64,000 nucleotides of DNA from Planctomycetaceae bacterium (GTDB lineage Bacteria; Planctomycetota; Planctomycetia; Planctomycetales; Planctomycetaceae), in the NCBI GenBank assembly GCA_024742875.1, contig JANSXP010000001.1:372001-436000 (forward strand), read 5' to 3'. How positions within the stretch are numbered: the stretch's first letter is position 1; every line of letters starts with the position of its first letter. A program made the position numbers and the translations under genes. Positions 2,086 through 11,928 of this stretch are shown in pieces. The notes beneath the pieces are model-generated. The model worked only from the letters and a program-made list of their open reading frames with translations. It did no database searches and was not told where the DNA came from.

Positions 2086-3621
2086 TCACATGGCTGTTGG
2101 TCTCGCTCCGCGCTCCAGTTGCTGCAGCAGTCCGGCGGCTGTGGACGAGTCCGGTTTCAGCTGCAGTGCCCGCGCGGCGAATTCCAGAGCGGCATCCGGC
2201 CGGTCCATCTGTACGTGGCAGCGGGCCAGGTTGCACAGTGTGGTGGGATGATCTTCGAAAAGCCGCAAAGACAGCTCATACAGGCGGACAGCGTCGGATG
2301 GATGGCCCAGTTTTTCCCACAGATGCCCGATGGCAAACGGTATGTCGTCAGTGCCCCAGTGAAAGTAGCGACGTTCGATGAGCGGCAGGGCTGCAGTGAG
2401 TGCTCGTCTCTGAGCGGAATCAGCTGTTGGCAGCGCCCGACGAATGTGGCGGCGCAAGTGATAAAATACCAGTGCGTCATGTCCAGACAGCCGCAGCAGC
2501 GACAGGCAGCGGCTCAAAGCGACCTCGCTGTCGTCCTGCCAGCGACGGGACAGCTGATGAAACTCTCCCGGATTGAAGTCACTCACTCCATGATGATATT
2601 CCCGTCGCAGATTCTGCAGCGGGCAGTCGCCGGCTGCAGCGAACGCCGTCACGTGCACGACGGGCGCATCGTGTGCGGATACGAACGCCTGGCCCTGTTG
2701 CTGCTGGAACCACTCAGCGATCGCCGGAAAATTGACGCTGAACGAATAACAGCCTCCATGGGGAATCGCAGTGGGCAGCGGGCGGTTGTGAAGTTCGTCC
2801 ATGTGCCGATACCCCTTATCGGCGGCCAGCAGCAGCATGCCGTCGGTCGCCCACGAACGCACGTCTGACAAGACACGGCAGCCCGCGGTCGGGATGGTGA
2901 AGCAGCCGTCGCGGACGTGATGCGAAAAATGCTGCACGAGGTGTTCCAGTGAGGCGTCAGCATAAGCGGTGTCGGTGACCGGACGCTGCTCCCACTCCCA
3001 GTCAGGTTCGTCGCTGTCAGCTGTCTGCGTGATCCGCGGCAGGCATTCAAGCAACTGGTCGCCCTCTGTGCGAAACACGTCAATCGGCAGTGAGTCAAAA
3101 AAGTAGTTGCCAATCACCACCACATGTTGTGACGCATTGTCTGCCGTGACTGTTCGACGGGTCTGCCGCAAAGTGAGGTCGCTGTCTCCGGCGGCAAAGC
3201 GGGCGACATCGGCAACTTCGGACTGGATCAGAGGGGCGAGTCCTTCGTGCTCCTGCCAGAAAGTGATGTTGCGTTCCGCGATGTCCGTCAGAACGTACTG
3301 CCACTGGGCGTCACCCATCAGCCCAGCCTGCTGCAGTTCCTGCAGATGCTGAATGCACAGATAGCCAAATCGCCCGTGGCCGGCGCCGCCTTCCACGATC
3401 AGCACCTGCTGCGCACCGGTATCAGCAATATAGGCGGCGATGCAGCGGGCGTAAGTGCGGGCGATGTAGGAGCTGGTGGTGATCCGCGACGGCACACTGC
3501 CGCGCCAGGCGTCAATGCCGACAGATTCGTAAAATTCGGTCTGACGCTGCCAGATCGAAGCGGCCGACAGGCGACGACCGGAATCAAGCAGGTTCAGGTG
3601 CTGACTGGACAGTGAATTCAC
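2086..3621 (-). CDS. MidA-like class I SAM-dependent methyltransferase with C-terminal TPR
   Basis: The protein is 511 residues if the GTG at 3621 is used. The frame stays open to an ATG at 4062, but that extension runs through low-complexity sequence into the divergent gene at 3969, so the shorter form is preferred. Motif I reads VLIVEGGAGHGRFGYL, and NYFFDSLPIDVF matches the 'FD(A/S)LP' signature of the MidA/NDUFAF7 group, whose mitochondrial member methylates an Arg of complex I subunit NDUFS2. The last 90 residues carry a TPR-like pair (AVRLYELSLRLF, ALEFAARALQLKP). A MidA-type core fused to TPRs suggests a protein substrate, but this is inference. The start is uncertain because no good ribosome binding site is visible. 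Confidence 0.7.
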   Translation of the reverse strand: MNSLSSQHLNLLDSGRRLSAASIWQRQTEFYESVGIDAWRGSVPSRITTSSYIARTYARCIAAYIADTGAQQVLIVEGGAGHGRFGYLCIQHLQELQQAGLMGDAQWQYVLTDIAERNITFWQEHEGLAPLIQSEVADVARFAAGDSDLTLRQTRRTVTADNASQHVVVIGNYFFDSLPIDVFRTEGDQLLECLPRITQTADSDEPDWEWEQRPVTDTAYADASLEHLVQHFSHHVRDGCFTIPTAGCRVLSDVRSWATDGMLLLAADKGYRHMDELHNRPLPTAIPHGGCYSFSVNFPAIAEWFQQQQGQAFVSAHDAPVVHVTAFAAAGDCPLQNLRREYHHGVSDFNPGEFHQLSRRWQDDSEVALSRCLSLLRLSGHDALVFYHLRRHIRRALPTADSAQRRALTAALPLIERRYFHWGTDDIPFAIGHLWEKLGHPSDAVRLYELSLRLFEDHPTTLCNLARCHVQMDRPDAALEFAARALQLKPDSSTAAGLLQQLERGARPTAM

Positions 3622-3968
3622 GCGTGATGTCTTTTTTCGGAAGGCAGAACACAGGGCTGCAGCCGGCGCCGCAACGGGCGCCACAGTGGGTGTCGACGTT
3701 GGTCCGACAGGAAGAGAATAGGTCACTAACGCGGGCGCGGTGGAAAGATTGGCTCCGCTGTCAAAAGGGTGACAGCGGGTCGCGTTCGCCACGGAGGCCT
3801 GAAGGAAAACAGACCCAGCGACCGTGGCGGACTGGTTCACAGCGATGGCTGCGGTTAGTCTCTGCACGGGGCGCAGTGCAAGTGATGGGGCCGATTTCTC
3901 GCCGGTCTTTGTGGATCGGTAATCCATCGCCCACTTGCCGCCTGGGGATTCTGTTGAGGACAGCAACC
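3622..3968. promoter_or_regulatory. Divergent intergenic region with a perfect inverted repeat
   Basis: These 347 bases separate the divergent methyltransferase and DUF1579 genes and contain no convincing gene. At 3755-3778 there is a perfect inverted repeat with 9-base arms (CCGCTGTCA and TGACAGCGG) around a 6-base spacer. No T-tract follows on either strand, so an operator or an RNA hairpin is more likely than a terminator. Confidence 0.45.
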
Positions 3969-4532
3969 ATGTCGATTCGCGTTTCTGTGTTTGTATGCCT
4001 GCTGGCCATTTCCTGTGGGCCGGCTTTCGCTCAGGAGGGACCAGCGGGTGCGTCCGCGACAAAGCAGCATCAGTGGCTGCAGAAGTTTGTGGGCAGCTGG
4101 ACGGTGGAAAGCAAAGGGTCCATGGGCGAAGGACAGCCGGAGATGGTGTCCAAAGGCACGATCGAATCCACTTCCCTGGGCGGCTTCTGGGTGATGAATC
4201 GGATGACGGCGGATTTCGGCGGCATGGGGTTCACCGGAGTGCAGACGGTCGGCTATGACGCTGCCAAAAAGAAGTATGTGGGCACCTGGGTCGACTCCAC
4301 CAGCGGCTTCATGTGGAAGTACGAGGGGTTCGTGGATGACTCGGGTAAGAAGCTGGTGCTCGAAGCCACAGGACCGGACATGCTGGATCCCGCCAAATCA
4401 CGGTTGTATCGGGATTCCTACGAATTCAAGACCAGTGACGTTGTGGTAACCACTTCATCGATGAAGAACGACGACGACACGTGGACCACCTTCATGACGG
4501 GGGTCGGCAAACGCGTGAAGCCAAAGAAGTAG
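3969..4532 (+). CDS. Secreted DUF1579 family protein
   Basis: The protein is 187 residues and starts at the ATG at 3969, preceded by GAGGA about 8 bases upstream. Residues 1-21 are a signal peptide (VSVFVCLLAISCGPAFAQ). The mature part has the DUF1579 pattern: a Trp-rich start (LQKFVGSWTVES), then alternating beta strands including GFWVMNRM, VQTVGYDAAKKKYVGTW and a closing acidic-aromatic strand. The family is lipocalin-like in predicted shape and common in planctomycetes; its function is unknown. It is monocistronic: a strong terminator follows at 4589 and the upstream gene is divergent. An exported small-molecule-binding protein is possible, but nothing in the sequence names a ligand. Confidence 0.75.
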   Translation: MSIRVSVFVCLLAISCGPAFAQEGPAGASATKQHQWLQKFVGSWTVESKGSMGEGQPEMVSKGTIESTSLGGFWVMNRMTADFGGMGFTGVQTVGYDAAKKKYVGTWVDSTSGFMWKYEGFVDDSGKKLVLEATGPDMLDPAKSRLYRDSYEFKTSDVVVTTSSMKNDDDTWTTFMTGVGKRVKPKK

Positions 4533-4688: not shown

Positions 4689-7600
4689 TCACTTTTGGGG
4701 CGTCAGCAGCTGTTCGAACGTTGCATTGCCGATGCGGTATTTCTTCCAGTCTTTGTAATCGAAGTGCCACCACTCGTATTCGTACACCGTGAATCCTTCC
4801 GCTTCCATGGTGCGACGCAGCAGCTGGCGGTACCACCGCTGTCGTGCAGTTCCGCCGGGGTACAGCGGAAATGATCGCGGAGAGAATTCATCATATCCGG
4901 CCACCATTTCAATCGGGTCACCGGTCGCCAGATCGTACAGCGTCAGGTCCACCGCGCAGCCGCGGTTGTGGCGTGACCCGCTGGCCGGGTTAGCGACAAA
5001 GTCTTTCAGATTGTCCGGTGTGGCGTCCCAGAACATTTTTGTAACGTGCCAGGGACGGTAGGCGTCATGAACCAGCAGGCCCAGACCCAGCGGTTCCAGT
5101 CGTCGCTGGGCGCGGACGACTGCTTCGGCAGCGGGCCGCTGCATGAAGGCCTTCGGCTGCTGGTAGAAGATGGCGCCGGTAAAGTTGTTGGTGGTGGCAT
5201 AGCGAACGTCCAGGTGAATGGAGTCATCCAGCGAGGTGAGTTCCACCAGGTCCGGCTCCCGAAAGTCGCCAGGTTCTGCGGGAGGTGACGCCGCCAACGC
5301 ACCGGCCCGCAGTTCGTCGATGGGACGCACCGGCTCGATGCGAAACGTCTCGCCGTCTTTTGTGCCCACTTCACGTCGCACGAAAATGACCTCTGCGGCA
5401 TTGACGCTTGTCGCTCGCCCGCTGCTGTCGCGCGTGAACGTCAGACCTTCGCCGTGATACAGGCCGTAGTCGGGAAACTGGAAGACATTGTCACTGACTT
5501 CGGTCAGTGGATAGTAATAAAACCACTCGATGAGCGCGTACAGCTTCTCGTCTTCTTCAAGGATGTACAGCGTGTTGTGGTCCCAGCCATACTCTCCGAT
5601 CAGGCCTTGCCAGCGCTGCGGAATGTCGGCCGGAGGTGTGTCGGGCAGCCGTGCGTATTGGGTGTCGCCGATTTTCAGCCGCCGATTTTCCCCTGGGGTC
5701 ACCTGTGTGCCAAATCCTGTTTCGTCGTCGGTCAGGATGACACCGTCGCTCGCTCGGGAGCGGAGCTGATACCGGTACGAACCGCGGTGCAGGAAGACGG
5801 CGCCGTCCAGCTGGCTGATTTCCGCAAACCGATCCCCGTTCACCTCCCGATATTTTCCGATCAGTTCTGTCGCACGATCTGCGGGAACGGCAATTGTTGT
5901 CGGATAGTCAGGCAGCGGCTGTTCGTTCTGTGCGGCGACCATCAGGCGCAGCGCATAGTCGGCCAGTCGTCGCGTGACGCCATTGCTGCCATCCAGCGCT
6001 GAGGCGGCCACAACGCCCAGTTGCCGTTCGGGCAGGACTTCCAGCTGGGTGGAGAAGCCATACACTGCGCCCCCATGTCCAATTTTGGTCAGTCCGTCAA
6101 GTTGCTGCACATGAAACCCCAGTCCGAAGCCCTGCGGCTGGCCGTTCTGATCTTTGACGGGCGTTGTCATCAGGGCCAGCGTTTCCGGTTTGAGCAGGGC
6201 GCCGCCGGCTGTCTGTCCGTCCGCGAACAAGCACGATGCGAACTTCGCCAGGTCCCGCACGCTGGAGTACATGTTTCCGGCCGGTCCGGTTCCTAAAAGA
6301 AACGTGGGCGCTTCAAACCGGCGGCCGTCGTATGTGCGCATCCATCCCGTCGCCATTTGGGGAGCGATGGCCTGGTCAATGACAAAGCTGCTGTTGCTCA
6401 TACCCAGCGGTTTCAAAATACTCTGTTGAACTCGCTGGGGGTGGGTGCTGTCCAGTTGTGACTCCAGCACGGCTCCCACAACCGCGATGGCCGCGTTGGA
6501 ATATTTGGTTTTGCTCTCCGGGCGGTACACAAGCCGCGTGTTGTTGAGGCTGCGAACGGTGGCGGCCAGTGTGGGTTCGTGCGGATCAAAATAATGCCCC
6601 ACCGGAGATTCGCGGACCAGTCCGGACCGGTGAGACATCATCTGTCGCAGGGTCTGGGCAACACCGAATGGGTTTTTCGGCTGGAAGTCCGGGAGGTACT
6701 GTTGAATGGGCGCATCCAGATCCAGGCGACCTTCATCCACCAGCTGCAGCAGGGCGATGTCGGTGAACAGTTTGGAAACCGATCCGACGCGGTACACTGT
6801 GTCGGCTGTGGCGGGCTGGGTCTGGTCAGCATCCTGAAAGCCAAATCCGTCCGCCCAGACAGTGTGGTCCTTATCAACCAGTGCGATCGAAAACGCGGGC
6901 AGTCGCTTCTGTTCCACTTCCCAGCGAACCGCCCTGCGCAGTTTTTCGACGGCTGGCTGATAGTCAGGTAAAGGTGGCAGATACACGTCAGCCAAAGAGA
7001 CGGCCAGCTGTGTGAGGCTCAGCCGCTGCAGATTGCTCATGATGGCCACGCAGGTTCCCGATTCAGGATAAAGCAGCAGCATCGTGGACGTGCCCGACTG
7101 CGCTCCGCCGTGCCAGACGGCGGAGCGATTTGACTTTTCGCCAACCCCCCAGCCCAGTCCATAGCCCGTTTGCTCTGCGTCGTCCGTCTGCCCGGAGGTC
7201 CACATTGCCTGCCGCGTCTTTTGGCTCAGCAGGCGGCCCGTATTGATGGCTGTGGCAAAGCGAACCAGATCGGGGGCCGACGACAGCAGCCCTCCTCCCG
7301 GGATCTTCATGCTCGTGTCATGCAGCGTGCAGTTGTACAGCTCTCCGATTTTGAAGTTATTGCCCGGCAGCAGGAACTGCAGAGACGGCGTGGCGCGAAA
7401 ATAACCGCTGGCTCGATGAGGGACGATAGAAAACACGTCGTCAGCCACCGTCTGCCGCATGTCTGCCTGGGCCATAACCCGCTGTTGGAGGAGTGTCATG
7501 AAGTCCGCCTCACCGGCCGCCTCACACACGGACCCGAGCAAATTGTAACCGAACGATGAGTAACGATATTTTGTCCCCGGTTTGTGAATCAATGGGTCGT

Positions 7601-8102
7601 CGACGAATGTCCGGAGAGCAGTTTTCAGGTTGAAAAAATGCTTCGTGGAAGACGCTTCTGCGGCCGATTTGTAATGCCGCACTCCGGCTGTGTGTCCCAG
7701 CAGCTGTCGACACGTGACCGGCCAGCCCTTGTCTTTGAACTGTGGCACCCACTGTTCCACGGAAGTGTCCAGGTCCAGTCGACCCTGTTCCACCAGCGAC
7801 AGAGCGATTGCCGCTGTGAGCGGCTTGGCAATGGATCCAGTACGATAGCGCGTGTCGGGCCGCGCTGGCACGTCGTGCTCCACGTCGGCTTTGCCATAGC
7901 CCTGCACATACACCAGCTGATTGTTGTGGGCGACGGCCACCGACATGCCGGGCACTCCATGCTCGTTCATGTAGGCGGACACCCGCTGATCAATTGCTGA
8001 GGTCCGCTCGTCGGCGGCAAGACGGCCGGTCAGCAGGCTGCCGGCCAGCAGCGGGAACACGAGGAAAGTTGCCGCCAGCAGCGGTCGTGGCCTGGGATTC
8101 AT
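4689..8102 (-). CDS. Tandem beta-lactamase-family serine hydrolase fused to a VanX-type D-Ala-D-Ala dipeptidase
   Basis: This 1137-residue exported protein contains three enzymes. Residues 1-30 are a signal peptide. Domain 1 (about 35-375) is a class C beta-lactamase/DD-peptidase fold with S90-I-A-K93, Y181-S-S and H331-G-G. Domain 2 (about 385-720) repeats the fold with S441-V-S-K444, Y534-S-N536 and H676-G-G. A beta-rich linker (about 730-915) follows. Residues 950-1137 are an M15D dipeptidase like VanX, with R1016 (DAYRP), zinc ligands H1045 and D1052 in SRHNRGCAVD, and E1110 and H1113 in EWWHF. All three active sites look intact. The ATG sits 8 bases after AGGAGG and overlaps the stop of the epimerase gene by 4 bases. 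It is the last gene of the operon. The likely job is periplasmic hydrolysis of D-Ala-containing peptides; beta-lactam or vancomycin resistance is less likely but not excluded. Confidence 0.88.
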   Translation of the reverse strand: MNPRPRPLLAATFLVFPLLAGSLLTGRLAADERTSAIDQRVSAYMNEHGVPGMSVAVAHNNQLVYVQGYGKADVEHDVPARPDTRYRTGSIAKPLTAAIALSLVEQGRLDLDTSVEQWVPQFKDKGWPVTCRQLLGHTAGVRHYKSAAEASSTKHFFNLKTALRTFVDDPLIHKPGTKYRYSSFGYNLLGSVCEAAGEADFMTLLQQRVMAQADMRQTVADDVFSIVPHRASGYFRATPSLQFLLPGNNFKIGELYNCTLHDTSMKIPGGGLLSSAPDLVRFATAINTGRLLSQKTRQAMWTSGQTDDAEQTGYGLGWGVGEKSNRSAVWHGGAQSGTSTMLLLYPESGTCVAIMSNLQRLSLTQLAVSLADVYLPPLPDYQPAVEKLRRAVRWEVEQKRLPAFSIALVDKDHTVWADGFGFQDADQTQPATADTVYRVGSVSKLFTDIALLQLVDEGRLDLDAPIQQYLPDFQPKNPFGVAQTLRQMMSHRSGLVRESPVGHYFDPHEPTLAATVRSLNNTRLVYRPESKTKYSNAAIAVVGAVLESQLDSTHPQRVQQSILKPLGMSNSSFVIDQAIAPQMATGWMRTYDGRRFEAPTFLLGTGPAGNMYSSVRDLAKFASCLFADGQTAGGALLKPETLALMTTPVKDQNGQPQGFGLGFHVQQLDGLTKIGHGGAVYGFSTQLEVLPERQLGVVAASALDGSNGVTRRLADYALRLMVAAQNEQPLPDYPTTIAVPADRATELIGKYREVNGDRFAEISQLDGAVFLHRGSYRYQLRSRASDGVILTDDETGFGTQVTPGENRRLKIGDTQYARLPDTPPADIPQRWQGLIGEYGWDHNTLYILEEDEKLYALIEWFYYYPLTEVSDNVFQFPDYGLYHGEGLTFTRDSSGRATSVNAAEVIFVRREVGTKDGETFRIEPVRPIDELRAGALAASPPAEPGDFREPDLVELTSLDDSIHLDVRYATTNNFTGAIFYQQPKAFMQRPAAEAVVRAQRRLEPLGLGLLVHDAYRPWHVTKMFWDATPDNLKDFVANPASGSRHNRGCAVDLTLYDLATGDPIEMVAGYDEFSPRSFPLYPGGTARQRWYRQLLRRTMEAEGFTVYEYEWWHFDYKDWKKYRIGNATFEQLLTPQK

Positions 8103-9151
8103 GGCAGCCTCCTGTCAGAGGAGTGAGTTTGGTGAACAGGAAATGACACTCCGTTTCCGTGAGTGTGAGTCAGTTCGATGCGTCCGTCGATCACACGCAC
8201 GCCGCTGGCCGGATCGTCGGACAACAGCGCGGCGCCATCCAGATCAGCATAGTCGAGCAGGGGGGCCAGCTGTGCGGCGGCCGATATGCCGACGCTGCTT
8301 TCCACCATGCAGCCCAGCATGGTTTTCAGACCCAGCTGACGTGCCCGACGCAGCATTCCCACGGCGGGCGTGATACCGCCGCATTTGCTGAGTTTGACGT
8401 TAATGCCATGAAAATGCGGCGCACAGGCGTCCACGTCGGCCGGCGTCTGACAGCTTTCGTCGGCGAAGACCGGCAGCGCCGACTGCTCAAACACATGCGC
8501 CAGCTGCTCAGCGGATGCGGTCGCGGGCAGCGGTTGCTCAAGCAGTTCCACGCCCAGTGGTTGCAGCCTGGAGGCATTGTCAATGGTTTCCTCGGGCGAC
8601 CAGCCGCCGTTGGCGTCAACGCGAAACGTGGCGGGTGTGACGTCTCGCAGCGCCCGCACGATTTCCACGTCGCGATCTGTCCCCAGTTTGATCTTGTAGA
8701 TGGGCCAGCCGGCGTGCGTCTTCAGCTTTTTGATCATCACGTCCCTGCGGTCAATGCCGATCGTGTAGCTGGAGGGCGGCACCTGCTTCCAGCTAAGCGC
8801 GAGCAGCTGGTAGGTCGTTTTTCTCTGCAGCTTGCCAAACAGATCCCAGGCAGCGCAGTCGACGGCCGACAGGGCAAACAGGTCCTCCGCCAGCGGCACG
8901 TGCAGCTGAGCCCACAGCTGTTGCGGATGACCGAAGGTGTACGTTTCGATTTTTTCTCGACAGCCTTCCAGTGACGCACTCACCGAATCCTGCGTGTGGC
9001 CGTAGAAGGCGTTTTCGGATGCTTCCCCAAACCCTCGCTGCCCCTCGTGCTCCAGTTCCACAATCAGGGTGGAACGGGTGGACACCGATCCCCGCGCAAT
9101 CGTGAATTCAAACTCCAAAGGCAGCCGCAGTCGATGCAGTCGCAGTTTCAT
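8099..9151 (-). CDS. Enolase-superfamily dipeptide epimerase (L-Ala-D/L-Glu epimerase or N-acetyl-D-Glu racemase type)
   Basis: The protein is 350 residues with the muconate-lactonizing subgroup layout: an N-terminal capping domain (1-110) with the 20s-loop region around FTIARGS, then a barrel. Catalytic features are K153-I-K155, metal ligands D179 (DANGGW), E205 (EQP) and D231 (ADES), the base in NVKLSKCGG, and D-L-D-G-A near the end as in L-Ala-D/L-Glu epimerases. It starts 4 bases inside the DUF1611 gene, after a strong AGGAGCGGAG. The reaction is either inversion of D-Glu to L-Glu within a murein-derived dipeptide, or, given its DUF1611 partner, racemisation of N-acetyl-D-glutamate as in the reported DgcA enzyme. 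The sequence alone does not decide between them. Confidence 0.85.
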   Translation of the reverse strand: MKLRLHRLRLPLEFEFTIARGSVSTRSTLIVELEHEGQRGFGEASENAFYGHTQDSVSASLEGCREKIETYTFGHPQQLWAQLHVPLAEDLFALSAVDCAAWDLFGKLQRKTTYQLLALSWKQVPPSSYTIGIDRRDVMIKKLKTHAGWPIYKIKLGTDRDVEIVRALRDVTPATFRVDANGGWSPEETIDNASRLQPLGVELLEQPLPATASAEQLAHVFEQSALPVFADESCQTPADVDACAPHFHGINVKLSKCGGITPAVGMLRRARQLGLKTMLGCMVESSVGISAAAQLAPLLDYADLDGAALLSDDPASGVRVIDGRIELTHTHGNGVSFPVHQTHSSDRRLP

Positions 9152-10203
9152 TCGCTCCGCTCCTGTTTTCGTTGAAGTACGGCGTCAGCCAGAAGGCCCG
9201 GTCCGTCGCGGTACACGTCGCACACAGGCAGGCCGAATTCGGACTGCATGCGGCGGCGTTCGGCGCTGACCTGTGCGGCTGTTGCGAACCGTCCATTCAT
9301 GGCGATGCCGATGAAACTGCACGGGTGACGAAGCGCGGCCATCGTCAGGTATGCGTTCATCAGCTCGCCGTGACTGCGCAGCCGAACATTGTCCAGGCCC
9401 TTGACGTGTTCGCGACCGATTTCGTAACAGTAGATCAGACCCTGAGGAGCGCAGCCGTTCAGCAGACCGGCGGTGACCGCTGAAAAACTGGGGTGGGACA
9501 GACTGCCCTGACCCTCTATCAGCAAAATTTCGTGCTGCTCGTGTCGACGGACCAGTCGTTCGGCCGCGCCATTGACAAAGTCGGCCACCACACAGTCGAT
9601 GGGCACTCCGTCGCCGGCAATCATGATGCCCGTCTGACCGGTGGCCAGAAACCTGGCGTCAACCGCTCGCTCTTTCAGTTCACGCTCCAGTTCCAGTGTG
9701 GCCACCATTTTTCCCACACTGCAGTCCTGTCCCACCGTGTGAATTCGCAGACTCCTGGAGCCCAGCGGTTCTCCACTGGACGTGCTGAACTCTGAGTTGC
9801 GGCGCACATCGATCAACCGACAGCCGCGTTCTTTCGCCAGCTGGACCAGTTCGTCATCGCTGGTCAGAAACTCGTGCAGACCGGATACCAGATCCAGCCC
9901 CTGTCGCAGAGCGGCGGTCAAAACGGGTCGCCACGATACCGGCAGCCGACCGCCCGGCGAGGCGATCCCCACAAACACGGCGTCCGCCTGCGGCGGGAAC
10001 TGCCCGACAACGGGGACCCCGTGTCCTGCAGGAAACAGCTGACCAGCATCCCGACCGGCATGTTCCCGATCAAAGACGGCACAGATGTCGGATGGCCGAT
10101 ACCGCAGCAGACTGATGGCCGTCTTCGCCAGCTGCGGCGTGGAGCAGCCATCTGTCAGCACGACAATCTGCTGATAATTCTGCAAAGCGGCATAGGGATT
10201 CAC
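9148..10203 (-). CDS. DUF1611 family P-loop protein (DgcN-like)
   Basis: The protein is 351 residues. It starts at the GTG at 10203 with GGAG about 9 bases upstream and is the first gene of the operon. An N-terminal Rossmann-like domain (1-145) precedes the DUF1611 P-loop domain, where the nucleotide loop is GQDCSVGKM (158-166) and LIEGQGSLSHP follows near residue 240. Members of DUF1611 often sit beside dipeptide epimerases. One branch, DgcN, was reported as a D-glutamate N-acetyltransferase acting before the DgcA racemase in D-glutamate catabolism. The gene order here matches that pair exactly. The protein has no signal peptide, so it should work in the cytoplasm after uptake of D-Glu or short peptides. 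The acetyltransferase role is inferred from the neighbour and the family. Confidence 0.82.
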   Translation of the reverse strand: MNPYAALQNYQQIVVLTDGCSTPQLAKTAISLLRYRPSDICAVFDREHAGRDAGQLFPAGHGVPVVGQFPPQADAVFVGIASPGGRLPVSWRPVLTAALRQGLDLVSGLHEFLTSDDELVQLAKERGCRLIDVRRNSEFSTSSGEPLGSRSLRIHTVGQDCSVGKMVATLELERELKERAVDARFLATGQTGIMIAGDGVPIDCVVADFVNGAAERLVRRHEQHEILLIEGQGSLSHPSFSAVTAGLLNGCAPQGLIYCYEIGREHVKGLDNVRLRSHGELMNAYLTMAALRHPCSFIGIAMNGRFATAAQVSAERRRMQSEFGLPVCDVYRDGPGLLADAVLQRKQERSE

Positions 10204-10328: not shown

Positions 10329-11279
10329 TTACCGGCCGTCAGGCGGCGACTCTGCGGCCAAATCGCTGGCTGCGGCTTTCCATTTGTCGGCAAACGACCA
10401 GTGCTGTGGGAATCGTTCCTGGCGACCGGCCGCTGACAGGGGAGGCAGCAGGAATTCGGCCAGGTCTGCAGTGATGTGCGTCAGATCCAGGGAGGCATCA
10501 AGTCGAGTTTTGCGGAGGAAGGCTTTCCACTGCGTCTGTTTTTGTTTGTCGGTGGCAAATGCAGATGTCAGCGCCAATGGGGCTTCTGTGGGAAGTTCGG
10601 TTTGCCGGCGGACGAAGGTGGCCGCAATGGCCTCCGCCAGACGTGTGCCGGAGAAGGAAAACTGTCGCGCCAGACTGCGAATATCATAAAAGTCCTTCAT
10701 GCGACTGTTGGCGATGCCCAGGTGCACCATCGCCTGCAGTTTTTCCGCGATCACTGTTTCGCGCGGGTAGACCGTCAAAGAGGGTGCGGGAAAATCGAGA
10801 ATCGCCGGATACTGCGTGCGTTCGGGGCCAGGCGTGATGGCGTCTCCAAAACCGATGTCGATCTGCACGGGGATTCTGGCTGACGCCATATGCGCGGTCA
10901 GTTTCAGTCGCAGGCCTTCGTACTGCTCGTCTGCTTTCATACGGGCCGCCTGTACGGACTGGCTGTCGAACACCAGGCCATCGTCGGGAACTGGTACGTC
11001 ACACACGTTTTGGAATATCTGTGCGAAAGCTTCCGGCTCGGGTTCGCCGCTGCCCAGAAGGTCCAGGTCCCGCGTGGGACGATGGACGTCGCCCGTCCAG
11101 ATCTGAAACAGCATGGCGCCTTTGAGGACGAAGCGATCGGCGTGGGCAGACTGCGTCAGTCGAAACAGCAGTCGCTCCAGCGCGAAGCGAGTCAGCACCA
11201 GATCGAATGGCTCCTTTGTGGTACGTGACACGTTCATCAGTCGCTGACGAACCGAGGCGGCGACGTTGCGCGGGCTCAT
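10329..11279 (-). CDS. AbiEii/AbiGii-type nucleotidyltransferase toxin
   Basis: The protein is 316 residues. The ATG at 11279 overlaps the antitoxin stop by 4 bases, which fixes the start although the frame stays open 45 bases further. The MNT-like nucleotidyltransferase core is visible: FVLKGAMLFQIW, then T-R-D-L-D-L-L (the two catalytic Asp), then VQIDIGFGD (third acidic residue), followed by VIAEKLQAMVHLG and MKDFYDIRSLA, which are typical AbiEii signatures. Type IV toxins of this family transfer nucleotides, for example onto tRNA 3' ends, and block growth. It is paired with the AbiEi protein immediately upstream. The pair probably acts in phage defence or locus maintenance. Confidence 0.85.
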   Translation of the reverse strand: MSPRNVAASVRQRLMNVSRTTKEPFDLVLTRFALERLLFRLTQSAHADRFVLKGAMLFQIWTGDVHRPTRDLDLLGSGEPEPEAFAQIFQNVCDVPVPDDGLVFDSQSVQAARMKADEQYEGLRLKLTAHMASARIPVQIDIGFGDAITPGPERTQYPAILDFPAPSLTVYPRETVIAEKLQAMVHLGIANSRMKDFYDIRSLARQFSFSGTRLAEAIAATFVRRQTELPTEAPLALTSAFATDKQKQTQWKAFLRKTRLDASLDLTHITADLAEFLLPPLSAAGRQERFPQHWSFADKWKAAASDLAAESPPDGR

Positions 11280-11872
11280 ACGACCGCTTCCAGATAGGGT
11301 CTCATGACGTTGGACTGTCGGCACGCAGCGGCCGCCTGCCAGAGTTCGTCCATTGTGACCCGCTTTTCAGAAATGGCCTGACGCAGCGCCTCGATCGCTA
11401 CGTCCAGTCCCACCTGGCTGCGGAATTTGAAACAGTCTGCGAGCGTTTTGGCGATGGAGAACACGCGGACCGACTGCCCCTCAATATCGGCCTGCTCGAC
11501 GCCATACTGCAGGGCGTCTCCGGACATGCGAACCAGACGGATGGCCGGGTAGTCAACCACCGGTGTGCGTGTGGTCCGACTGGCCGCCATCCAGACCTCG
11601 AATGGGGCTTCTGTGGTGAGGTCGTAAAAACGCAGCGCGCTGAGCAGACAGACGGTGGCCTGAGGAAGACGGCGTGAGGCTTCCAGCAGCGAACGATGTT
11701 CGGATGGGGCATCGTCCATCAGAGCGTACAGGCCCCGGGACGGGCGATCGAGCACCCCCTGCTGATACAGTTTTCTCAGGTAACCGCCCGAGTAGCCGCG
11801 CCGACGCAGATCACGGACCCGCAGGGGGCCGTTTTGCCGCAGAATTTCGATGATTTCACTGCGTTTGGTCAT
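11276..11872 (-). CDS. AbiEi family antitoxin with N-terminal winged helix-turn-helix
   Basis: The protein is 198 residues from the ATG at 11872; an ATG at 11905 would add 11 residues that do not fit the family. Residues 1-60 form the AbiEi winged helix (IIEILRQNGPLRVRDLRRRG, then YLRKLYQQGVLDRPSRGLYAL). The C-terminal domain has the usual 'CLLSALRFYDLTT' and 'VFSIAKTLADCFKFR' segments. AbiEi proteins bind DNA upstream of their own operon and also neutralise the AbiEii toxin. It overlaps the toxin gene by 4 bases and is transcribed first. Two direct repeats lie just upstream (11929-11969) and could be its operator. Confidence 0.85.
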   Translation of the reverse strand: MTKRSEIIEILRQNGPLRVRDLRRRGYSGGYLRKLYQQGVLDRPSRGLYALMDDAPSEHRSLLEASRRLPQATVCLLSALRFYDLTTEAPFEVWMAASRTTRTPVVDYPAIRLVRMSGDALQYGVEQADIEGQSVRVFSIAKTLADCFKFRSQVGLDVAIEALRQAISEKRVTMDELWQAAAACRQSNVMRPYLEAVV

Positions 11873-11928
11873 GGGCTGGCGGTGCGCGTCCCGTGAGGGC
11901 TCCATTTACCAAGGTTCGAATGTGCATA

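Follow-up and report, generated by a model that had tools for sequence, protein, structure and literature searches.

A candidate peptidoglycan-peptide scavenging operon centered on D-glutamate in a planctomycete

What task could bring together, in one operon, a DUF1611 protein, an enolase-superfamily epimerase, and a chain that joins two serine peptidase-type domains to a VanX-like domain? The question is raised by three genes on the minus strand at positions 4689-10203 of the window, by which we mean the whole 64,000-nucleotide stretch of a Planctomycetaceae bacterium genome that was analyzed (contig JANSXP010000001.1, positions 372,001-436,000). The first gene (9148-10203, GTG start) encodes a DgcN-like P-loop protein of 351 residues, a candidate D-Glu N-acyl(acetyl)transferase; the second (8099-9151) encodes an epimerase of 350 residues that resembles DgcA and the L-Ala-D/L-Glu epimerase AEE; and the third (4689-8102) encodes an S12-S12-M15 fusion of 1137 residues that is probably exported. 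A sequence-only reading of the window had described overlaps of 4 bases between successive genes, and the list of open reading frames places these at 9148-9151 (DUF1611/epimerase) and 8099-8102 (epimerase/fusion). As read from the sequence, AGGAGG, a ribosome-binding-like sequence, lies 5 bases ahead of the ATG of the third gene, and GGAG precedes the starts of the other two. The operon is real, conserved, and coherent. We hold with modest confidence that it specifies a peptidoglycan-peptide scavenging route centered on D-glutamate, most likely with a DgcN/DgcA-type module for D-Glu inversion and, linked to it, exported hydrolases that would act on peptidoglycan-type peptides and can replace one another.

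The domain and motif assignments of the sequence-only reading were borne out, since all three proteins have matching Pfam domains and the catalytic motifs are intact. The 351-residue protein, the sole DUF1611 match in its genome, contains DUF1611_N (1.1e-24) and DUF1611 (1.9e-64) domains and a P-loop, GQDCSVGKM, at residue 158, the features by which membership of DgcN is judged; its closest solved chain is 7xrj (3.9e-57). The epimerase contains MR_MLE_N (4.1e-8) and MR_MLE_C (1.8e-32) domains and has the adjacent DUF1611 gene by which DgcA is recognized. Its residues K153, K155, E205, E232, K253, K256, D303, and D305 are each present in 99 of 99 alignment rows (the window row included), and R20, which is common to 1jpd and 4gfi and not to 3iji or 3jva, is found in 88 of them. 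The KxK, E, DE, K, and DxD active-site residues of AEE are all present, and the same residues do not separate AEE from DgcA. The DxD motif, which we take to bind the ammonium group of a dipeptide, was considered as a discriminator between the two enzymes and fails in this role, both having it. The functional roles of the active-site residues named for the epimerase and the S12 domains are presumptive.

The third protein contains two Beta-lactamase/S12 domains (1.8e-134 for the whole protein), at residues ~37-360 and ~385-730, and a VanX-like Peptidase_M15 domain (4.2e-34) at residues 951-1118. In an AlphaFold model generated from 11 sequences (mean predicted local distance difference test, pLDDT, of 73.9; predicted template modeling score, pTM, of 0.64), a beta-rich region of ~170 residues (~736-910) precedes the M15 domain. 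For the S-x-x-K, Y-x-N, and H/K-x-G motifs of S12 peptidases, domain 2 is fully canonical (S441xxK444, Y534SN536, and H676GG), whereas domain 1 has S90, K93, and H331GG with Y181-S-S where Y-x-N is expected. In an alignment of 11 sequences, S441, K444, Y534, N536, and H676 are invariant, as are R1016, H1045, D1052, E1110, and H1113 of the M15 domain; among the latter, H1045, D1052, and H1113 are presumably the zinc ligands, E1110 the base, and R1016 the transition-state arginine. Among solved chains, the M15 part matches the VanX-type 1r44 alone at E<=0.001 (8.6e-22), and its NCBIfam scores, 144.8 bits for DdpX (cut-off 176) and 88.6 bits for VanX (cut-off 320), miss both cut-offs; the fusion is the sole M15 match in its genome. 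In a Foldseek search with the whole fusion, the top matches in the PDB are the D-aminopeptidase 1ei5, the DL-peptidase 9sn1, and the Pyrococcus protein 2qmi; the 50 matches listed of 1231 have S12-type folds only and give no placement for the beta-rich part. The N terminus, judged by eye only, is signal-peptide-like and has no lipobox, suggesting that the fusion is probably exported. The earlier description of two S12 domains with a VanX-like M15 domain therefore holds for this protein, but it has to be qualified by the YSS sequence of domain 1 and by the rarity of the N-terminal S12 domain: the match spans the first S12 domain through the end of M15 in only 6 of 103 genomes, the common form being S12, beta-rich region, and M15.

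A search of 297 genomes of the class matched the fusion (E<=1e-60) in 103, DUF1611 (E<=1e-15) in 72, and the epimerase (E<=1e-25) in 69. For the linkage counts, a cut-off of E<=1e-40 was applied to DUF1611 and the epimerase, which removed six weaker matches of the former and three of the latter; the two then co-occur in the same 67 of the 297 genomes, with 76 and 74 copies, respectively, and 62 of the 76 DUF1611 copies have an epimerase gene on their own strand no more than 500 bp away, downstream in 59 of the 62. Twenty-five genomes hold both DUF1611 and the S12(-M15) protein. In 14 of them the S12(-M15) gene shares a strand with DUF1611 and is no more than 5 kb away from it, and in two others (G163 and G290) this holds with respect to the epimerase gene only. 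These 16 linked genomes are spread over three families (f1, f5, and f11), and in three of them (G163, G190, and G290) the M15 part is missing from the match. In the genus of the window, 7 of 8 genomes have DUF1611, and in 6 of the 7 the fusion stands directly after the pair or one gene on; it is truncated by the contig end in G007, and the contig of G001 stops before the fusion position. The co-location in relatives by which the sequence-only reading proposed to be judged was thus found, the trio recurring in three planctomycete families. It should be noted that, going by their lengths, several contigs are probably represented under two identifiers (L127/G001, L129/G002, L134/L032, L142/L244, L149/L212, and L168/L213).

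The strongest evidence for a link with wall peptides is that two unrelated DD-peptidase-type fusions occupy the same operon position. In the second architecture, the core is followed by a fusion of Beta-lactamase2 (class A), PG_binding_1, and Peptidase_S11 (carboxypeptidase) domains, as scanned in L135, L146, L158, L159, and L154; in L139 it follows a DUF1611 gene without an epimerase gene. When matches of ~500 residues or more were counted in DUF1611 genomes, shorter pieces being dropped, this fusion was present, among the matches listed, in 27 genomes and beside the core in 11. The 11 are all of the DUF1611 genomes of family f11, and one of them, G242, has the fusion beside DUF1611 with no epimerase gene adjacent. 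Both architectures occur in G097 and G190, and G163 has the S11 type plus a separate epimerase-S12 pair.

Other partners, identified by domain scan or else by BLAST to scanned examples and on the same strand unless stated, indicate DD-peptidase, gamma-glutamyl, beta-aspartyl, and amidohydrolase chemistry. They include S12+amidohydrolase_3 proteins (L023, L024, L026, where the gene is broken, L230, and L231) and the reverse order (L027), asparaginase_2/beta-aspartyl peptidases (L027 and L142/L244), C26 peptidases (L020 and L128), and stand-alone amidohydrolases (L137 and L243; 208 and 204 bits to PRK09061, cut-off 340), presumably of the D-aminoacylase type. A gamma-glutamyltransferase gene is directly downstream in L237 and upstream in L020; the other three of the five, in L034, L035, and L135, lie on the other strand and count for less. 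A PF03553 transporter gene is downstream in L020, L022, L126, L128, and L239, and a XylR-type regulator gene, domain-scanned at one locus, is upstream in 7 of 30 loci. The N termini of many of 13 hydrolases are signal-like by eye. On the same strand in 30 DUF1611 loci, the searched hydrolases are downstream in 16 and upstream in 2, but this sample is biased, since the queries came partly from the same loci and some loci were chosen for linkage; in the 20 of these loci that came from a general scan, a hydrolase is downstream in 7 and upstream in 1. The genes argC, argJ, and acpS are upstream of DUF1611 on the same strand in L144:2721-6719 (scanned), and L149 (probably one contig with L212) has the same gene clusters, of which L150 and L151 have some; this neighborhood could be a reflection of N-acetylglutamate chemistry, which it fits, or of chance. 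As a separate observation, the S12+amidohydrolase_3 gene of L026:9243-13258, the second DUF1611 locus of G004, is interrupted by a DDE transposase gene.

In the route that we propose, the S12 activity (DD-carboxypeptidase type) would remove D-Ala from muropeptide tails outside the cytoplasm, and the M15 activity (VanX/DdpX type) would cleave D-Ala-D-Ala there; at other loci, different hydrolases would fill the place of S12-S12-M15. Freed D-Glu, or a product that bears D-Glu, would be taken into the cytoplasm, where the DUF1611 protein would N-acylate D-Glu (DgcN, the precedent, uses acetyl-CoA) and the epimerase would turn N-acyl-D-Glu into the L form, leading to L-Glu or arginine metabolism. 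Each substrate, the export of the fusion, the uptake into the cytoplasm, and the direction of flux are predictions. More tentatively, the planctomycete loci may be modular, with a fixed DUF1611-epimerase core that rescues D-Glu and several hydrolase types that have been joined to it repeatedly (S12-M15, class A-PG_binding-S11, and S12-amidohydrolase_3, with gamma-glutamyltransferase, C26, and beta-aspartyl peptidase at single loci), feeding on the walls of other bacteria; the core would then be a distinct DUF1611-dependent epimerase group, in which the N-acyl group is perhaps not acetyl.

A number of findings weigh against the D-glutamate route. The top NCBIfam model for the 351-residue protein, DgcN (NF041892), is matched with 259 bits and a cut-off of 480, and that for the epimerase, DgcA (NF042940), with 239.7 bits and a cut-off of 400, so that both are missed; the proteins of two other loci, L199 and L201, are NCBI-grade, with 551 and 521 bits for DgcN and 498 and 467 bits for DgcA, respectively. 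The next model for the epimerase, PRK15129 (L-Ala-D/L-Glu epimerase), is also missed (175.5 bits, cut-off 343). However, the L201 epimerase exceeds the cut-offs for both DgcA (467 versus 400) and PRK15129 (365 versus 343), and the two models therefore do not separate the functions. The solved chain closest to the epimerase is 3iji (3.7e-65), which we take to be a Bacteroides dipeptide epimerase, followed by 1jpd (2.3e-44), which we take to be E. coli AEE, and the DxD motif is retained in the window enzyme, as it is in NCBI-grade DgcA. In a tree of 36 rows, which carries a midpoint root only, a 100/100 branch separates two sets. One comprises NCBI-grade DgcA (L199 and L201), 4gfi, 1jpd, and three further rows that are proteobacterial or unassigned; the other comprises the window epimerase, 3iji (whose position within this set is not settled), 3jva, and epimerases linked to DUF1611 in planctomycetes, cyanobacteria relatives, Actinomycetota, and Chloroflexota. 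The window epimerase is therefore outside the NCBI-grade DgcA group, but it may work like DgcA despite this separate grouping. Acetyl-Glu and L-Ala-D-Glu are both candidate substrates, since both enzymes miss their cut-offs and the tree separates the epimerase from NCBI-grade DgcA as well as from E. coli AEE.

The genomic distribution has points on the same side. There are 14 of 76 DUF1611 copies with no adjacent epimerase gene, and at the looser cut-offs G022, G025, G076, and G167 have DUF1611 without the epimerase and G292 has the reverse. No DUF1611 match was obtained in 77 of the 103 fusion genomes, and no constant partner was found at 20 loci around the S12-M15 protein. Most of these loci belong to genomes that lack a DUF1611 match, three genomes (G189, G194, and G248) carry one at another place, and two of the 20 loci lack the anchor; 10 scanned neighbors comprise sulfatase, kinase, SSF transporter, DUF1501, thioredoxin-like, amidohydrolase_2, and other proteins, with no family assigned to two. 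On a 45-row S12(-M15) tree, the label "beside the core" requires seven changes, at least four of them forced (L235 was labeled although it is beside the epimerase only, and L223, from G290, was not), suggesting several gains or losses of the link between fusion and core; one common origin of the trio is rejected on this basis. The searched hydrolases are present in 0 of 24 more distant DUF1611 loci (<45% identity), the window trio has no transporter gene, and some partners would suit acidic D-peptides other than those of peptidoglycan. In the sequence-only reading as a whole, the linkage and the wall theme have stood, with the trio in three families and DD-peptidase-type partners, but the DgcN/DgcA cut-offs were missed and the epimerase is apart from NCBI-grade DgcA; likewise, conversion of D-Glu to L-Glu agrees with the DgcN/DgcA precedent, but neither enzyme reaches its curated cut-off and 3iji is the nearest chain.

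These points bear on the alternatives to different extents. General scavenging of D-Glu, D-Asp, or isoaspartate peptides of any origin (lipopeptides, poly-gamma-glutamate, or aged protein), with peptidoglycan as one source, shares the core chemistry with the explanation that we favor and is not exclusive of it, so that the odds of the two overlap. The variety of partners (beta-aspartyl peptidase, C26, gamma-glutamyltransferase, and amidohydrolases), the D-aminopeptidase and DL-peptidase among the Foldseek matches, and the key role of dgcN for acidic D-amino acids and amides in the available portion of PMC12363236 agree with it, but the VanX-like and S11 plus PG_binding_1 partners are peptidoglycan-type domains, and we regard it as possible though on the unlikely side. 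Slightly less probable, and unlikely in our judgment, is a murein dipeptide route in which the enzyme is an L-Ala-D/L-Glu epimerase acting on a peptidoglycan-derived dipeptide, as in E. coli and B. subtilis, with DUF1611 performing a separate step. The nearest solved chains, 3iji and 1jpd, the retained catalytic and DxD residues with an R20 common to 1jpd, and the VanX-like or S11 plus peptidoglycan-binding peptidases adjoining the core are consistent with such a route, which is opposed by the invariable presence of DUF1611 with the epimerase at E<=1e-40 (67 of 67 genomes) and by the missed AEE cut-off. In a set of 14 control genomes, DUF1611 has no match in E. coli, B. subtilis, or Bacteroides ihuae, which also argues against a dipeptide function, but it has matches in Synechococcus elongatus, Corynebacterium glutamicum, Haloferax volcanii, and Thermotoga maritima. 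As T. maritima has a characterized dipeptide epimerase, the pairing alone does not exclude dipeptide work, and this match, together with the three of five gamma-glutamyltransferase genes on the opposite strand, lowers the D-glutamate explanation and raises the dipeptide alternative.

The presence of a VanX-type M15 and a DD-peptidase-type S12 domain within one protein might instead indicate maintenance of the cell's own wall or glycopeptide tolerance, through a reduction in D-Ala-D-Ala ends. VanX acts on the cytoplasmic pool, whereas the fusion is apparently exported; no vanH- or vanA-like gene is among the domain-scanned neighbors, where no search aimed at those families was made; and the partner hydrolases differ between loci, all of which makes this role very improbable. 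The least probable explanation is that the genes are chance neighbors without a common function. The S12(-M15) protein is indeed frequent without DUF1611 (77 of 103 genomes) and its link is patchy on the S12(-M15) tree, but 14 to 16 of 25 genomes are linked against an assumed chance of ~0.002 per genome (relatedness ignored), and a second, unrelated DD-peptidase-type fusion is at the same operon position.

The same strand of the window also carries genes for an AbiEii toxin-like and an AbiEi-like antitoxin protein (type IV toxin-antitoxin; 10329-11905), a pair that ends 125 bases upstream of the DUF1611 gene, and a gene for a Methyltransf_28-like protein with C-terminal TPR repeats (2086-4062). 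Beyond the planctomycetes, an Amylibacter locus has NCBI-grade DgcN (551 bits) and DgcA (498 bits) adjoining a D-amino-acid transaminase, and in the gammaproteobacterial L201:7391-10964 an S12 gene is one open reading frame upstream of NCBI-grade DgcN and DgcA, so the S12 linkage may extend beyond planctomycetes. At L036:8391-9485 and L037:5826-6908, the gene after that for a distant DUF1611 protein (~30% identity) overlaps it by 4 bases and belongs to the Ala_racemase_N family, in place of the epimerase gene (domain-scanned in L036, the same protein cluster in L037), and DUF1611 may thus pair with a second racemase type. DUF1611 relatives are also present on 100 plasmid records, all at <60% identity and some annotated dgcN, from hosts that include Klebsiella, Vibrio, Sinorhizobium, and haloarchaea.

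In water and sediment, where planctomycetes are common, D-amino acids and peptidoglycan remains make up a large pool of nitrogen that turns over slowly. If the proposed function is correct, a locus type in which the core is fixed and the hydrolases can be exchanged would make wall-peptide use predictable from genomes and would provide a genetic handle on an epimerase group linked to DUF1611 and known from sequences of planctomycetes, cyanobacteria relatives, and Chloroflexota.

In the available portions of three papers, a pathway by which acidic D-amino acids and their amides are irreversibly racemized has dgcN as its key gene (PMC12363236), a Shewanella is proposed to use D-Glu mainly through DgcN-DgcA (PMC10845958), and EC numbers are given for DgcN/DgcA, with growth on peptidoglycan reported for a Rhodobacteraceae strain that has these genes (PMC11747546); an operon with exported hydrolases is not described in those portions, and a literature search of titles and abstract openings found no account of this gene trio. 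Among known systems, the S12 D-peptidases (1ei5, Pyrococcus 2qmi, and the R61 DD-peptidase 1ikg) share their fold and the S-x-x-K, Y-x-N, and H-x-G motifs with domain 2, but the window chain joins two S12 domains and M15. The M15 domain keeps the zinc-ligand, base, and arginine motifs of VanX/DdpX (M15D), but it is fused behind S12 domains, is apparently exported, and is under both NCBIfam cut-offs. In E. coli and B. subtilis, AEE acts in a murein-peptide route, and the window epimerase shares its fold family, catalytic residues, and peptidoglycan theme; however, these species have no DUF1611 match, and the window enzyme misses the AEE cut-off. Finally, although the window scores are far under the cut-offs, the epimerase is beyond the 100/100 branch, and the operon includes a DD-peptidase-type fusion, the DgcN-DgcA system (EC 2.3.1.312 and EC 5.1.1.25) supplies the top NCBIfam models for both window proteins and has the same combination of DUF1611 and enolase-superfamily epimerase, in the order seen in L199 and L201.

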